21,039 nucleotides of DNA. Origin: a virus. The notes beneath the pieces were generated by a model that worked only from the letters and a program-made list of their open reading frames with translations, was not told the origin of the DNA and did not search any database. The translations under genes and the position numbers were made by a program. Shown here piece by piece: positions 5,744 to 18,091 of the stretch; position 1 is the stretch's first letter, and every line of letters begins with the position of its first letter. The stretch covers positions 1 to 21,039 of IMG/VR virus record IMGVR_UViG_3300021091_000493; one strand, written 5' to 3'.

Positions 5744-7789
5744 TTAGCAAGGTTTGGCGCAAGGATCCTCTGGAACATTAACGTCAGGATTCTGATCGTC
5801 AACACCAGCGCCAACATTACCACTATCAACCGTCCCAGTTCCCTGTCTTGGGAAAGGACCTGCAATATCATCAATATCATCTAATGCTTTGTTAGGAATA
5901 ATAGATGTATTTGCAGTGATGGGATTATTTGTAAATCCAGGATCGTTATAATCGAAATCGAAATCGTCTAAAATATCAATAAAATCGCTGATGGTTGCAT
6001 CGCAACCTTGACGTTCTGGGTTAGGAATAAGGATTAAATCCAAATATTCATCGGAATCATTTGCACCACTGTCTTTGCGTTTTTTCTTAGAACATGATAA
6101 CGAGAATAGTTTAATCATACCTTTAACAAGATTTTTAACCTGATTTAAGACTTGAAGATCTTGTTCGTATATGTTTTTAACATCTTCCTTGACGCTCTTT
6201 AATCGATTCTTCGTATCTGTGAGTTTATCAATTAATTGTGCAGGAGTAAGCCCTTTTATCGCCTCATCGCGCAGATCATACTTCAGTTGATCTAGATGCC
6301 TTCTGGTTCTGCGTAATAATTCTTGCTGAAATAATGACTGCGCGCAATCGGTCGGTTTAGAGGCACTAGCGGTTTGATAGATGCCATTTGCTCTTCGTAC
6401 TTGCACAGTCATGCCGTTCAAAAAATTAGAATCACCGCTGATAGTTCCTGGAAGAGTAAACGCATTTACAATACCATCTGGATCAACTAAATCTTCATCT
6501 AATCCTAGAAGAGGTGTTTCATTTATAACCTTAAATACTGGATAATTTCCAGTTTTTCTGAGGTAATCATCGACAACAATCTGAGTATCAGTCACCGAAA
6601 TTACAAAATATTCTTTGTTATCATAATAAATTTTATTATTTGCTTGCAAATGTGTAGTGAACGAAGTACCATTTCCAGTAATCACATTATCTAAACATAC
6701 AGAATTACAAACAAATCCAGATTTTACTTTAATTGTTAAATCAGTATTGGTCGTGGAAAATGCGGTATTTACATTAAAAGATGTCTCTTTAAAGAAACCT
6801 TGTGCACTCGCAGAGGAGTAAAATGGATTGTAAACAGTTAAATGATCTCCTAACGAATTAATAACATTTACTTGACGCACTTCATTATTTACAGAAATAA
6901 ACATTCTATTATTTAACGTAATCGATCCACTTGTGCTCAACAAGCAATTAGCCAAATTTAGTGTAGCGACAGAGGCTGTCGTCACTCGCACATTATCAGT
7001 GCTCACATCAATCGAGACAGTTCCAGTTGGCGCAACTGTAAAGTTTTTATTTGTTACAATTTTTTCTAGAGAATTAATTACAACAGTATCACCAATGTCA
7101 ACAATCGGATAAACAGTTTGACTTAAATTTGGGCTGACAACAATACTAGAAGCAATATTTACATTAGCACCAGTTACTAAAACATTACCATAAAGTCGCG
7201 CAAACTCAAACACTACTCCAGATCCACCTAAACCAGAAAGATTATCGGTGTGCTGTTCCATTTCTCGCATTGTTCTGGCTAAAGAATCTGATTCTTCGGC
7301 GATGTTAATTAATTCGCCTAAAGAAAATGGACCAGCTTTATATGTGTCTCCGTTTTGCTGCACTTTTCCAATCATGTTTAATAAATTGGTTCTTGCTGTT
7401 GCAACACTAGGTTCAGTGTTACTAAACAATCCTGGCAGCGCTGCTTGTAGTCCGACGTAGTTATTTGCTGTATATTTGTCCATCCAATCGTTAAAGTTAT
7501 CGAGTGGAGAGCCAAAATTAATGTTTAATGGGTCTAATACATTTTTTTGATATGAATCTCGTAACGGATTGGTGAAGTTTTCTGCAAAGAAAGTCTTAAG
7601 ATCTTTCTTAAAATTTTTAAGTTTTTCAAGAAACTTACCAAATTTACTTTCTTTAAAATTAAATCCGCCATTTTTGGCGAAAGGAATAGGCGTGCATGAA
7701 AATACGATCGCCAAAGTCTGAAGCAATGGCAATCCTCCGATCAAACAGAGAATAATCTTGATAATTTTTCCAATAATTTTACCTAACAA
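5744..7789 (-). CDS. Unknown 681-residue structural-type protein with hydrophobic N-terminus
   Basis: I do not recognise this family. The only possible start is TTG at 7787-7789: an in-frame stop lies 15 nt upstream and the next Met is near residue 103. Residues 1-31 are strongly hydrophobic (IIKIILCLIGGLPLLQTLAI) and could be a membrane or virion-buried helix. Residues about 200-440 are beta-rich and seem to hold two related units, MFISVNNEVRQVNVINSLGD and KIYYDNKEYFVISVTDTQIV, the second preceded by TGNGTSFTTHLQ, a pattern common in phage structural beta domains. Residues about 500-590 look coiled-coil (RRTRRHLDQLKYDLRDEAIK onwards). The tail is Asp/Asn/Pro-rich and ends PEDPCAKPC. The gene overlaps the preceding 78-codon gene by 7 nt and sits 28 nt before gp25, so a baseplate or tail-associated role is inferred from context only. 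Confidence 0.75.
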   Translation of the reverse strand: MLGKIIGKIIKIILCLIGGLPLLQTLAIVFSCTPIPFAKNGGFNFKESKFGKFLEKLKNFKKDLKTFFAENFTNPLRDSYQKNVLDPLNINFGSPLDNFNDWMDKYTANNYVGLQAALPGLFSNTEPSVATARTNLLNMIGKVQQNGDTYKAGPFSLGELINIAEESDSLARTMREMEQHTDNLSGLGGSGVVFEFARLYGNVLVTGANVNIASSIVVSPNLSQTVYPIVDIGDTVVINSLEKIVTNKNFTVAPTGTVSIDVSTDNVRVTTASVATLNLANCLLSTSGSITLNNRMFISVNNEVRQVNVINSLGDHLTVYNPFYSSASAQGFFKETSFNVNTAFSTTNTDLTIKVKSGFVCNSVCLDNVITGNGTSFTTHLQANNKIYYDNKEYFVISVTDTQIVVDDYLRKTGNYPVFKVINETPLLGLDEDLVDPDGIVNAFTLPGTISGDSNFLNGMTVQVRRANGIYQTASASKPTDCAQSLFQQELLRRTRRHLDQLKYDLRDEAIKGLTPAQLIDKLTDTKNRLKSVKEDVKNIYEQDLQVLNQVKNLVKGMIKLFSLSCSKKKRKDSGANDSDEYLDLILIPNPERQGCDATISDFIDILDDFDFDYNDPGFTNNPITANTSIIPNKALDDIDDIAGPFPRQGTGTVDSGNVGAGVDDQNPDVNVPEDPCAKPC

Positions 7790-8019
7790 CGCACAGCACT
7801 CTTCTTAATTGATTCTTCTAACTCATAAATTTCTTTATTTTTTTGTTCTATAATTGAAAGCGCAGAAAGATAACTTTTATATCCCATAAATTTGTCATTT
7901 AAATTATGTGTCATCAAAAATAGTTCATCCTTCTCAGACAGCGGTATTGCTCTTGACATTTTCGCCACTATAGATTGATATGTTTTTACATCAGCTATCG
8001 TTAAACACATATTTATCAT
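7783..8019 (-). CDS. Small helical protein of unknown function (78 residues)
   Basis: This short gene is locked into the operon. Its ATG (8017-8019) overlaps the preceding stop as ATGA, and its stop overlaps the next gene's TTG start by 7 nt. The protein is almost all helical with a charged heptad-like C-terminal half (IIEQKNKEIYELEESIKKSA), suggesting a coiled coil. A GAAGGG Shine-Dalgarno-like element at 8022-8027 is only 2 nt from ATG 8019 but 11 nt from a second in-frame ATG (8008-8010), so the protein may really begin at MCLTIADVK (75 residues). No family is recognised. A small baseplate assembly factor or structural accessory protein would fit the location but is a guess. Confidence 0.65.
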   Translation of the reverse strand: MINMCLTIADVKTYQSIVAKMSRAIPLSEKDELFLMTHNLNDKFMGYKSYLSALSIIEQKNKEIYELEESIKKSAVRC

Positions 8020-8435
8020 ATCCCTTCAGGATTAGTTGCTGATTTATAACCACTAGTTCCTTCTGCTGGAGAATTCACCTCATTAACATTTTTGTAATTC
8101 GATGATGGAAATTGTTGTACTACACCATCGCCTCGACTAGCTGCTAATACATTATCAACAAAACTTTTGGCGCTACTGTTGTCGAAATTTAATACTTTAC
8201 CATTAAATGTTCTTTCGCCAGTCACAGAATCTATTTTAGCAGTGATTGTAGTTCCAGTGTTTGTTGGAATTTTATCACTAACTTTTGCACCAGGAATCAA
8301 AGCAGTTTGTTTAACTTCAGATTCGGTTTTTCTTTCTTGATCAACTTTAGAGAATTTATCTGTTTTTGGCGGATGTGGTGATCTAGAAACAACCTTCTTC
8401 ATTGCAGCTGCATTTAAAACGCCGAGAACAGCCAT
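8016..8435 (-). CDS. Unknown 139-residue tail-operon protein
   Basis: The ATG at 8433-8435 has AGGG 7 nt upstream and lies 3 nt after the gp5 stop; the stop forms an ATGA overlap with the next gene. The protein starts with a short helix (MAVLGVLNAAAMKKVVSRS), followed by a basic, polar and probably disordered segment (residues 20-45). A small beta segment follows (TTITAKIDSVTGERTFNGKV, residues about 62-81), then a Ser/Asn-rich tail. I recognise no family. Placement right after the gp5 spike and hub genes suggests a baseplate accessory or spike-associated protein, but nothing in the sequence proves it. No PAAR-type Cys/His tip motif is present. Confidence 0.65.
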   Translation of the reverse strand: MAVLGVLNAAAMKKVVSRSPHPPKTDKFSKVDQERKTESEVKQTALIPGAKVSDKIPTNTGTTITAKIDSVTGERTFNGKVLNFDNSSAKSFVDNVLAASRGDGVVQQFPSSNYKNVNEVNSPAEGTSGYKSATNPEGI

Positions 8436-13152: not shown

Positions 13153-13587
13153 ATGGCTTACAGTGGTAAATTTAGTCCTAAAAATACCAATAAATATTTA
13201 GGTGATCCTACAAACGTCTGGTATAGATCGCTATGGGAACGCCGAGTTATGGTGCACCTGGACAATAATCCTAGCGTAATTGAATGGTCAAATGAAGAAA
13301 TCGTCATACCTTATTTATCCCCAGTTGACAATAAAATACATCGATATTTCCCAGACTTTTTTGTAAGAATGCGAACAAAGTCAGGAGTAACAGAGGCAAT
13401 GATTCTTGAGGTTAAGCCATTGGTACAAGCAAAACCACCAAAACAACAAAGTCGAGTTACTCGACGATACATTCGTGAGGTAATGACTTGGGGCGTAAAT
13501 GAAGCGAAGTGGAATGCTGCACTTAAATATTGCGAAGATAGAGAATGGAAATTTAAGATTATTACAGAGAGAGATTTAGGTCTATAA
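13153..13587 (+). CDS. 4: Head completion protein gp4 (PD-(D/E)XK nuclease fold)
   Basis: The protein has 144 residues (T4 gp4 about 150) and begins MAYSGKFSPKNTNKYLGDPT, the hallmark of this family. The segment YRSLWERRVMVHLD, then HRYFPDFFVRM and MILEVKPL, has the spacing of a TnsA/PD-(D/E)XK nuclease active site. Candidate catalytic residues are E29, D68, E86 and K88. In T4, gp4 acts on the packaged head before tails attach. No Shine-Dalgarno element precedes the ATG; a late-promoter octamer ends 4 nt upstream instead. The stop and the next start overlap as TAATG. In T4, gene 4 neighbours gene 53; here it starts a plus-strand operon diverging from gp48. Confidence 0.92.
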   Translation: MAYSGKFSPKNTNKYLGDPTNVWYRSLWERRVMVHLDNNPSVIEWSNEEIVIPYLSPVDNKIHRYFPDFFVRMRTKSGVTEAMILEVKPLVQAKPPKQQSRVTRRYIREVMTWGVNEAKWNAALKYCEDREWKFKIITERDLGL

Positions 13588-14796: not shown

Positions 14797-15552
14797 ATGC
14801 CTTTACCGAAAATTGATTTGCCTATTTTTGAAATAAAACTAGTTTCTGAACCTAATCCAATTAAGTTTAGACCTTTTTTAGTTAAAGAAGAAAAGTTATT
14901 ATTGATGGCGCTTCAAACTGAAGAGGAGCAAACTATCCTCAACACAGTGAAGCAAGTTATTAATAATTGTTTGGTAGATGAGTTAAACATAGATAAATTA
15001 CCAATCTTCGATATAGAGTATTTATTTTTAAATATTCGCGCTAGGTCTGTTGGCGAAACAGTCGAAACCACATATGTTTGTCGTAATATAACAGAAACTG
15101 GGATTAACGAACAAGGTGAAGAAGTTGGAGTTGAGTGTAAACATCTAATGTGCATTAAAATTAATCTATTAGATATTAAACCACCAATTGATGATTTGCC
15201 TACTAAAATTTATATTACCAAGGATGTTGGGATTAAACTTAATTATCCTACGCTTGAAACATTTAAGAGCGTAAAGAATTTAATTTTATCTGAAGACGCT
15301 GAACAAATATATGAGTTGGTGTTTGATTGTACTGAATATATTTTTGATAGCGAAAATGTTTATTACTCTAAAGAGTCGTCGCTTGAAGAGTTTAAACAGT
15401 TTTTAGAATCATTAACACAAGAACAATTTGACAAAATTTTAGAATTTTTTAATAAATTACCCACTATCAAAAAAGATGTAAAACATGTTTGCGAGAAGTG
15501 TTCGTTTGAACATAATTTAGTATTGGAGGGACTTAACGATTTTTTTATCTAA
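14797..15552 (+). CDS. 26: Baseplate hub assembly protein gp26 (T4_baseplate family)
   Basis: The 251-residue protein has the family core FRPFLVKEEKLLLMALQTEE (residues 25-44) and LPIFDIEYLFLNIRARSVGE (residues 68-87), characteristic of T4 gp26 (208 residues), which helps build the central hub. C95, C114 or C119, and the C232-x2-C235 pair could bind zinc, an inference from spacing. GGAG lies 5 nt before the ATG, one of the best ribosome-binding sites in the window. The last codons are GAT TTT TTT ATC TAA. The T7 run, preceded by GGAGGG, allows a -1 shift into the next ORF, which would give a 325-residue fusion. Just upstream of a tape-measure-type gene, gp26 occupies the place of the tail-assembly chaperone G of other long-tailed phages. 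Confidence 0.88.
   Translation: MPLPKIDLPIFEIKLVSEPNPIKFRPFLVKEEKLLLMALQTEEEQTILNTVKQVINNCLVDELNIDKLPIFDIEYLFLNIRARSVGETVETTYVCRNITETGINEQGEEVGVECKHLMCIKINLLDIKPPIDDLPTKIYITKDVGIKLNYPTLETFKSVKNLILSEDAEQIYELVFDCTEYIFDSENVYYSKESSLEEFKQFLESLTQEQFDKILEFFNKLPTIKKDVKHVCEKCSFEHNLVLEGLNDFFI
15525..15546 (+). promoter_or_regulatory. Probable programmed -1 frameshift signal (GGAGGG + T TTT TTT)
   Basis: GGAGGG at 15525-15530 is followed, 9 nt later, by seven T at 15540-15546. Read in the gp26 frame this is T TTT TTT, the X XXY YYZ form needed for a tandem -1 slip. After the slip the next codon is TAT at 15546-15548, and the frame stays open through ATG 15591 to the stop at 15771-15773. In E. coli dnaX an internal Shine-Dalgarno-like element about 10 nt upstream of A AAA AAG stimulates -1 slippage; the spacing here is nearly the same. 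No start codon lies where GGAGGG could serve as an ordinary ribosome-binding site. Confidence 0.7.
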
Positions 15553-15576
15553 CTTTTCGCAATGGGTCACTGCGCG

Positions 15577-15593
15577 CATATTACAGCAATATG
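15577..15593 (+). other. Hairpin covering the start codon of the small ORF
   Basis: CATATT (15577-15582) pairs with AATATG (15588-15593) around the loop ACAGC. The 3' arm contains the ATG of the 60-codon ORF. A perfect 6-bp stem over a start codon with no ribosome-binding site would disfavour independent initiation. It is about 30 nt from the slippery site, which is far for a classical stimulatory structure. Confidence 0.4.
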
Positions 15594-15773
15594 TTTACAT
15601 TAACTCACCAATACAAATATACACTAACTGAATTAGAAAATATGCTACCCTGGGAAAGAGACATGTATATTTCGATGGTGAATAACTGGGTAAAAGAAGA
15701 AACGGATAGAATTAATAAAACGAAGGTCGAATCTCAAGAAGCCATGAAAAAGTTGTTTAAGAACAAACGATAA
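15591..15773 (+). CDS. Small tail-assembly-chaperone ORF, probably made as a -1 fusion to gp26
   Basis: From ATG 15591 the product would be 60 residues with MLPWERDMYISMVNNWVKEE (residues 18-37) and a basic helical end, a pattern I associate with short ORFs between gp26 and the next large gene in T4-like marine phages. T4 gp51, the hub catalyst, has a similar role but is much longer, so I do not assign the name. There is no Shine-Dalgarno element, and the ATG lies in the arm of a small hairpin. The same frame is open upstream to 15546, giving 15 linker residues (YLTFRNGSLRAYYSN), and joins gp26 by a -1 slip. This would be the T part of a G/GT-like pair. Its stop overlaps the next gene as TAATG, coupling it to the tape-measure-type protein. 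Confidence 0.7.
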   Translation: MFTLTHQYKYTLTELENMLPWERDMYISMVNNWVKEETDRINKTKVESQEAMKKLFKNKR

Positions 15774-18091
15774 TGTCATTAGCAGATTTATCATCAAAAC
15801 TATACACAATTAAATCTAGAAAGAACGTTCCTTTCGCGACAGCATTCACACAGATGATTCGTGAAGATCTCGCTATGAGATATTCAGTTTTTAATTTAGT
15901 TAAGTCCCTTTCGGGATCAGAATTAATCGCTCAAGTTGCTGAGGCAAAGTATGGGTTTAGAACTCCGTTACAGAGAGGAGAAGAGGCTCGAGAAAAAAAA
16001 CGAGCATCGATGGATCGCAAATTTAAACTATTTACTGCGGATTCAATTGTAACTTTGAATAATAAAATAAACACACTCGCTTCTATAACCGAACGAAATT
16101 CTATATTAATTGAAAATTTGTATCACGATTTGGGATCATTTAGGACTCAAAGAAAATTCGCCAAACGCGATCTAAGCACTGTAGCAACCAAAATACCAAT
16201 AAAATCTAGAACAGTAAAATTTCAAATCGAAAACATTAGATCTGAACTAGATGCTTTGCAAAAAATAACTGTTGGTCCTAAAACTATTAGAAAAATTAAA
16301 AATTCTGCAGCTGCAGGTGGGGTAATGGGTGCAGCAGTCATGACTCGAGATCGTGATAAAGAGGGGATACCAGAAGAAACACCAACATCTCCAGAAGAAT
16401 CTAAATCTAGTCTGTTAGATACTGCAATAGATTTAGTCACAGGTTATACTGTTGTCAAAGGTGCTAAAGATATCTTTAGCGGCACTAAAGATTTTATAAA
16501 AAATAAGATGGGAAAGCCTACCGCAACCCCAACTGAAATTCTTGATAAGAACGGAAAACCATTAAGAGGTGCAGCACTAAAATCTGCACAGGAAAAAGCA
16601 GCGCGCGAAACTGCCCAAAAAGCGGCGCAGCAAACTCCATCTAAAACTGGAGTGATGTCTAGATTAGGTGGTGCAGGAACCTTATTGAGAAGCACTGTGA
16701 TTGGTGCCGCAGCATACGAATTGGGACCTGGTATGATTAATAGAATGATTGGTGCTTTTCAAAGAAAAGGGGATGAGACTAGATCTGCTGCAGAGAAAAT
16801 TGCGCAAATATATGGCATGAAGTTGATTAGGGGTGATGGTGGAACCACCGTAGCATTTGAAATAGATGGTAAACGATACACATATGACGAATTGCCGCCG
16901 CAATATAAAAATATCGTAAACGCATATTTAACTGGTGATCAAAGATCTGTGCCTGCTAGGACTGCTTTGGCAGAAATAAACAAAAATCAAGAAACATACA
17001 AACTGCTGAAAACTGCAGAGGGTAGAGCACAAGTTCTTGCACCACCAATGACAGAAACTGAAGCAGCGATAGCAACTTCATCAGCTGCGTCGGCTATAGT
17101 TGCCGCTGCAAAAACAGCAAAAGTCACAACACCAGAACCTCAAATGATTGCTGCAGGAACACCTGAAGTGACCGCTCCAGCAGCCCTATCAACTGCTAAT
17201 CTCGGCACACTTCCATCTGCGTCATACACTCCAGGTCAACCTGTTGATAAAGAAACAGTAAAACAAATCATCGTTCAAGCAGCTGGAATTGTTGGAGTTG
17301 ATCCTGGAATTATGTTGGCTATGGGTCAACAAGAGAGTTCATTCAATCCAAACGCTAGACCTTACGTCAAAGATAAAAAGACAGGCGAAATGAAATTGTT
17401 GTCGTCTGCTAAAGGGCTCTTTCAATTTATCGATTCTACTTGGAAAAATATGCTTGAAAAATATTCTGGGAAATATCCAGAACTATTAAATGGTCCAATG
17501 GATCCTATTGCTAATGCACTAGCAGGTGCGTTATATGTGAAAGAAAATTCTGAGATTTTAAGAAGTAAGAAAATTGCAATCACTGGAACATCAATTTATG
17601 CCACGCATTTTTTAGGTCCAGGTGGAGCATCAAAACTATTTTCTGCATCTCCAACCGCTTCGGCTGTATCAGTATTGCCTGCTGCTGCAGCATCTAACCC
17701 GCATATATTTTATGCAAATTATGGTAAGGGAGACGCTAGACCTAGAACTATACGTGAAGTAATTGATACGTTATACAAAAAAGTTGGATCGAAGGCTGAA
17801 GCGTATACTGCAGAAATTCGTAGAGGTGGTATACAACCATTACCAACAACAACACCAGGAATGGCAGTTTCCGCACCACCACCACCAATGTTATCTGCTG
17901 CTACCGCTGCACCTAGCGCATCATCAGCAGAACTTACGGCAGCAACTGCAGTTGCTGGTAACAAATTAACTCAAGAAACTGTGGTTGCTGTGGCAGATAA
18001 AGTTAGTGAGTTAGATAAAAGAACTAGTGTAGATCGATCATTTCCTTCTGTCCGAAACTCTTCTATGCTCAATCGTGGAGCAACAGTATAA
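15773..18091 (+). CDS. Tape-measure/hub-type tail protein with lytic transglycosylase (SLT) domain
   Basis: A 772-residue protein. Residues about 1-180 are basic and helical (KLFTADSIVTLNNKINTLAS). Residues about 180-480 are Ala/Lys-rich, with hydrophobic or small-residue stretches (AAAGGVMGAAVM near 178-189; LRSTVIGAAAYELGPG near 305-320). Residues about 490-625 form a goose-type lysozyme/SLT domain: VDPGIMLAMGQQESSFNPNA with E521 as probable catalytic acid, SAKGLFQFIDSTW near 546-558, and ATHFLGPGGA near 606-616. The C-terminal 130 residues are Ala/Pro/Ser-rich. The domain cleaves peptidoglycan glycan strands. Its position after gp26 and the frameshifted chaperone ORF suggests a tape-measure role like T4 gp29. 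A separate hub lysozyme is the alternative. The gene starts as TAATG and is the last in the plus-strand operon. Confidence 0.82.
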   Translation: MSLADLSSKLYTIKSRKNVPFATAFTQMIREDLAMRYSVFNLVKSLSGSELIAQVAEAKYGFRTPLQRGEEAREKKRASMDRKFKLFTADSIVTLNNKINTLASITERNSILIENLYHDLGSFRTQRKFAKRDLSTVATKIPIKSRTVKFQIENIRSELDALQKITVGPKTIRKIKNSAAAGGVMGAAVMTRDRDKEGIPEETPTSPEESKSSLLDTAIDLVTGYTVVKGAKDIFSGTKDFIKNKMGKPTATPTEILDKNGKPLRGAALKSAQEKAARETAQKAAQQTPSKTGVMSRLGGAGTLLRSTVIGAAAYELGPGMINRMIGAFQRKGDETRSAAEKIAQIYGMKLIRGDGGTTVAFEIDGKRYTYDELPPQYKNIVNAYLTGDQRSVPARTALAEINKNQETYKLLKTAEGRAQVLAPPMTETEAAIATSSAASAIVAAAKTAKVTTPEPQMIAAGTPEVTAPAALSTANLGTLPSASYTPGQPVDKETVKQIIVQAAGIVGVDPGIMLAMGQQESSFNPNARPYVKDKKTGEMKLLSSAKGLFQFIDSTWKNMLEKYSGKYPELLNGPMDPIANALAGALYVKENSEILRSKKIAITGTSIYATHFLGPGGASKLFSASPTASAVSVLPAAAASNPHIFYANYGKGDARPRTIREVIDTLYKKVGSKAEAYTAEIRRGGIQPLPTTTPGMAVSAPPPPMLSAATAAPSASSAELTAATAVAGNKLTQETVVAVADKVSELDKRTSVDRSFPSVRNSSMLNRGATV

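Follow-up and report, generated by a model that had tools for sequence, protein, structure and literature searches.

Gene 26 of a T4-like virus as a probable tail-assembly chaperone gene decoded through a -1 frameshift

Gene 26 of the virus analysed here is very probably a tail-assembly chaperone gene that is decoded two ways, through a -1 frameshift of the G/GT kind. The virus record, 21,039 bases long and called the window throughout, carries a T4-like tail gene block. That gp26 and the small ORF behind it are together the G/GT-like chaperone was the original prediction, and it is supported by the slip site, a Shine-Dalgarno-like element, the fusion to a gp51 domain, the variable position of any start in the small ORF and a chaperone-like predicted fold. 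The features on which the argument turns, with their neighbours, are the following:

13153-13587, + strand: gp4-like head closure protein (profile and PHROGs searches)
from 13587, + strand: gp2-like DNA end protector
from 14132, + strand: tail tube-family protein
14797-15552, + strand: gp26-like protein, 251 aa, probable short chaperone form (TAC-N, gpG equivalent; PF12322, phrog_150, AlphaFold model)
15525-15530, + strand: Shine-Dalgarno-like GGAGGG inside gp26, likely stimulator (read directly; conserved in relatives)
15540-15546, + strand: slippery heptamer T TTT TTT, gp26 frame (read directly)
15550-15552, + strand: TAA that ends gp26 in the zero frame, one codon past the heptamer
15546-15773, + strand: -1 frame extension, 75 codons and stop, probable TAC-C (gpT equivalent; C-terminus of T4 gp51)
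15773-18091, + strand: probable tape-measure protein, 772 aa, containing a transglycosylase domain (PF01464; position)

The gp4-like head closure protein (13153-13587) also matches the N-terminal domain of TnsA-type endonucleases (PF08722, E 5.6e-22). In the baseplate block, a 681-aa protein encoded on the - strand (5744-7789) found no PHROGs match at E 0.01, and neither did its small neighbours at 7783-8019 and 8016-8435.

The slip site and its conservation

The 3′ end of gp26 reads GAT TTT TTT ATC TAA, the seven T occupying positions 15540 to 15546. Direct reading of the window confirms that GGAGGG (15525-15530) is followed after 9 nt by the T TTT TTT heptamer in the phase of the gp26 frame, and that the frame entered by a -1 slip (TAT CTA ACT TTT CGC and on) is open from 15546 to 15773, so that 250 residues of gp26 and 75 of the extension would make up a fusion of 325 residues.

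The site was compared in 80 loci, namely the window and 79 IMG/VR relatives with a readable stop and identity down to 33%, from which 71 sequences less than 80% identical were taken as a non-redundant set. An in-phase NNT TTT TTN heptamer is present in the gp26 frame at all 80 loci, with 0, 1, 3 or 8 codons between it and the gp26 stop among the relatives. Eleven of 16 named phages, belonging to several groups, also have it in phase; a search with a Vibrio phage gp26 found only seven near-identical loci, and those that were read contain the heptamer. The original prediction had proposed conservation of the T-run as a check, and here the outcome was divided: the phased heptamer is kept in 80/80 loci, but the run of seven T is not itself the conserved unit, since run length varies from six to eight T among relatives, often in the form T TTT TTC.

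The codons at the site point in the same direction. The codon preceding the slip ends in T in 71 of 71 sequences, though it encodes seven different residues, and because the residue changes while the wobble T stays, several independent events are implied. Calculated from the loci's own codon usage, retention of this wobble T has a log10 P of about -15, a value that ignores shared ancestry; related loci do share ancestry, which makes the nominal P values given in this work too small and overstates independence. TTT serves as the first Phe codon in 71/71, against 75% elsewhere in the same genes, and the second slip codon is TTC in 36 sequences, TTT in 30 and TTA in five. Judged from these codons, conservation of the heptamer is far beyond chance, and the pattern is the one that tandem -1 slippage would need, unexplained by conservation of the protein alone.

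The upstream element and the downstream RNA

In E. coli dnaX, whose products are tau and gamma, a Shine-Dalgarno-like element lies about 10 nt upstream of the -1 heptamer. The window resembles dnaX in this respect, with GGAGGG 9 nt before its heptamer, and differs in having T TTT TTT where dnaX has A AAA AAG followed by a stem-loop; no stem-loop beyond chance is found downstream in the window. Conservation of the upstream element, as anticipated, is seen in the relatives as (x)G GAG GGN with fixed spacing and codon bias. Of the 71 loci, 52 have a Glu-Gly pair, in every case exactly four codons upstream of the slip, and its Glu is encoded by GAG in 38 of these against 24% elsewhere (P 8e-14, ignoring shared ancestry). 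Where Leu precedes the pair its codon has G in third position in 25 of 36 cases, against 26% elsewhere (P 9e-8, with the same disregard of ancestry). Pairing with the anti-Shine-Dalgarno sequence peaks in the relatives just 5′ of the heptamer, the mean duplex at the Glu-Gly motif being -6.9 versus 0.17 (sd 0.80) kcal/mol. Codon bias and pairing together imply that GGAGGG has been selected as a nucleotide sequence, at dnaX-like spacing, and on this comparative evidence it is likely to be a frameshift stimulator.

On the 3′ side of the slip, predicted RNA structure in the window does not exceed chance (z -0.22). A consensus helix was sought in an ungapped alignment of 70 loci, where RNAalifold returned an energy of 0 and the best stem was no better than in column shuffles; this null consensus speaks against a universal downstream stimulatory structure. 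Hairpins of single loci are enriched, 17 of 70 having z < -2 when control windows gave 4 to 8 out of about 70 (P 0.003), and hairpins of -14.9 and -17.5 kcal/mol (z < -4) are predicted at 6-50 nt past the heptamer in L002 and L003, the two relatives nearest to the window. Downstream hairpins would be at most lineage-specific.

The -1 frame extension and T4 gp51

The -1 extension is open in every non-redundant relative with complete sequence, over 58-80 codons. In the window it matches phrog_634, annotated as baseplate hub assembly catalyst (gp51), with E 7.9e-19, and the homology sets in at residue 3 of the extension, in the linker upstream of ATG 15591. Residues are conserved in the alignment from the slip onward, for example Leu 11 in 94% and Phe 19 in 97% of sequences, and ATG 15591 falls in a column that holds Asn in 92%. 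The position of the first -1 frame ATG, from 0 to 32 codons past the slip, is not conserved, and no ATG, GTG or TTG occurs in the -1 frame of the window between the slip and 15591. The small ORF had been described as lacking a ribosome-binding site, which agrees with an anti-Shine-Dalgarno duplex of +1.6 kcal/mol before ATG 15591 compared with -5.9 before the gp26 ATG. Read from the alignment, the small ORF is without a conserved independent start.

In T4, both domains stand in a single ORF, that of gp51: residues 1-201 match PF12322 (E 3.9e-52), and the same C-domain comes after them. The -1 product of the window aligns with the C-terminus of T4 gp51 right across the junction. This alignment implies that T4 encodes whole what the window phage would make by frameshifting. 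Genes 26 and 51 of T4 are separate and on opposite strands; gp51 holds both domains and needs no frameshift.

Some gp51 records bear on annotation. In three phages gp51 is annotated as a separate CDS with an internal start (L083 5034-5171, NC_020484; L082 5061-5192, NC_015288; L097 3070-3183, NC_031906), which is probably a mis-annotated frameshift product from which the conserved linker has been cut off. In another locus (L132, 1501-2246) a T4-type gp51 ORF ends after 120 codons while homology runs on to residue 247; this truncation may be a pseudogene, an intervening shift or a sequencing error.

Family and predicted fold of gp26

gp26 matches PF12322 (E 3.6e-55, above the cut-off) and phrog_150 (E 8e-64). 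An AlphaFold model built from 41 relatives has a mean pLDDT of 90, and with it Foldseek matched T4-type gp26 proteins in a viral library; Foldseek alone gave no significant match against the PDB, and searching the PDB by sequence turned up no relative of gp26. When 592 candidate PDB chains were realigned, the top three, covering about residues 1-95, were rbstp2171 (3fgx), the HK97 tail assembly chaperone gp13 (2ob9, Z 7.7) and B. subtilis YqbN (3klu), all at Z 7.6-7.7, where values below 8 are not decisive. YqbN is a prophage tail-assembly-chaperone-like protein. The next chain was 5ir0 (Z 5.2), followed by an unrelated one (Z 4.2). The part of gp26 matched by the top three is residues 1-87, and the region of about residues 88-251 had no clear PDB match. 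The N-domain model, in resembling the fold of the HK97 chaperone, lends moderate and independent support to the chaperone reading.

Alternative explanations

The small ORF could be a separate gene 51 starting at ATG 15591, or be reached by re-initiation past the gp26 stop with the aid of GGAGGG. Annotators list it as a CDS of its own in many phages, the gp26 stop overlaps a -1 frame ATG as TAATG or TGATG in phi-ST2, Cr30, EniLVp02, Mendera and Atu_ph04, and such an ATG lies within 6 nt of the gp26 stop in 20 of the 71 loci; the other 51, however, have no ATG near that stop, and the window has neither a start codon between the slip and 15591 nor a Shine-Dalgarno sequence before 15591. Re-initiation, moreover, has no need of an in-phase T TTT TTN, yet the heptamer is in all 80 loci, and it leaves protein conservation directly from the slip codon unexplained. 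We consider this explanation very unlikely.

Still less probable is that RNA polymerase adds or drops a base on the T-run and so yields a fusion mRNA. Seven consecutive T in the window and eight in a few relatives would suit such slippage, but 36 of 71 relatives end in TTC, leaving T6 followed by C, which is short for a slipping polymerase; codon phase is always kept although the polymerase does not need it, and a Shine-Dalgarno-like element has no transcriptional role. An error of sequencing or assembly in the homopolymer, hiding a plain in-frame fusion, is the least credible explanation: homopolymers are error-prone and T4 gp51 is just such a fusion, but the out-of-frame layout recurs in 80 of 80 contigs and in named phages outside the T4 subgroup.

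A model for frameshifting and the downstream ORF

In the -1 frameshift model that we propose, where the efficiency of frameshifting, the exact tRNA events, the tape-measure client and the role of the C-domain are as we infer them, most ribosomes would stop at 15552 and release the short form of 251 aa. A minority would pause as GGAGGG pairs with the anti-Shine-Dalgarno sequence of 16S rRNA while TTT TTT fills the P and A sites. The two Phe-tRNAs would then slip one base back on T TTT TTT and re-pair, and the shifted ribosomes would read past the gp26 stop to 15773, giving a 325-aa long form that ends in the C-terminal domain of gp51. If the two forms act as lambda gpG and gpGT do, the tape-measure protein, probably encoded by the ORF that follows, would be coated by numerous short copies and a few long ones, and tail tube subunits would be brought in by the C-domain.

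The 772-aa protein encoded by that ORF carries a transglycosylase domain (PF01464) at residues 501-597. It had no match among known tape-measure families, and no similarity emerged when its sequence was compared with T4 gp29 and with the proteins that take its place in relatives. Genes at the corresponding position are annotated as tape measure in Caulobacter phage Cr30 and in Pelagibacter phage HTVC008M, and the 772-aa protein is likely to be the tape measure, position being the basis of this assignment. Its start overlaps the -1 frame stop (TAATG, 15771-15775) behind a weak Shine-Dalgarno sequence (-1.4 kcal/mol). The large downstream ORF starts on or just past the -1 stop in 46 of the 57 loci in which it was located, and its Shine-Dalgarno sequence is weak, with a mean of -2.7 against -6.4 kcal/mol before gp26. 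These data give weak support to the idea that initiation of the tape-measure gene is translationally coupled to termination in the -1 frame (P 0.035 against other adjacent starts); other overlapping starts in the window have weak Shine-Dalgarno sequences too. It is conceivable, if rather doubtful, that the frameshift also meters the tape-measure protein and ties its output to that of the long chaperone, in which case shifted ribosomes would be the main ones to re-initiate at the large ORF.

Relation to known systems

Vladimirov, Gautam and Davidson (Virology 2022, 566:9-15) reportedly identified the chaperones of T4-like phages, with frameshifting conserved in several groups and the T4 group using genes 26 and 51. 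The supposition that no such frameshift had been described for gp26 in T4-like phages was mistaken, as two later papers cite the 2022 work for it (PMC12846349 and PMC10885494). According to these papers, T4-like TAC-N genes have poly-T -1 frameshift signals (PMC12846349) and some T4-like phages carry separate short and fused genes (PMC10885494). The window shares with the T4-like 26/51 chaperones (TAC-N, TAC-NC; Vladimirov 2022) the genes, their position and the poly-T -1 frameshift, and as far as the citing papers tell there is no essential difference.

Many phages are known to produce a tail-assembly chaperone in two forms by such a slip, among them lambda (gpG/gpGT) and the larger G-T family of long-tailed phages (Xu, Hendrix and Duda 2004). 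With these the window would have in common a short chaperone with a rarer -1 extension and, just downstream, a probable tape measure. It differs from lambda by its likely Shine-Dalgarno-like stimulator and by the extra gp26 region (about residues 88-251). The slippery sequence of lambda G/GT is also different from that of the window.

The Ackermannviridae (L086, L089, L095, L098, L106-L122) depart from the pattern: the gp51-like -1 extension is kept, T TTT TTN and the Shine-Dalgarno-like element are absent, and gp26 ends for example as GAR ATT TTC ATT TAA, with TAATG overlaps in some. Having no heptamer, they would need to make the C-domain through a rare start, through re-initiation or by slipping at a different site.

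The window is one more, previously undescribed member of the known T4-like frameshift chaperones. What is added here is a quantified, likely Shine-Dalgarno-like stimulator, the finding that the small ORF has no conserved start, the lineage-specific hairpins and the Ackermannviridae exceptions. The quantified element is a clear cis-signal and a cheap aid to annotating the gene, and annotation is where correction is due, since public records give gp51 a doubtful internal start, and the 'gp51' of many T4-like phages is most likely the C-terminal domain of the gene 26 frameshift product. A 2016 review still had T4 as the exception (PMC5009743). The present analysis supports the view that it is T4 itself which departs from the rule, with two genes instead of a frameshift.
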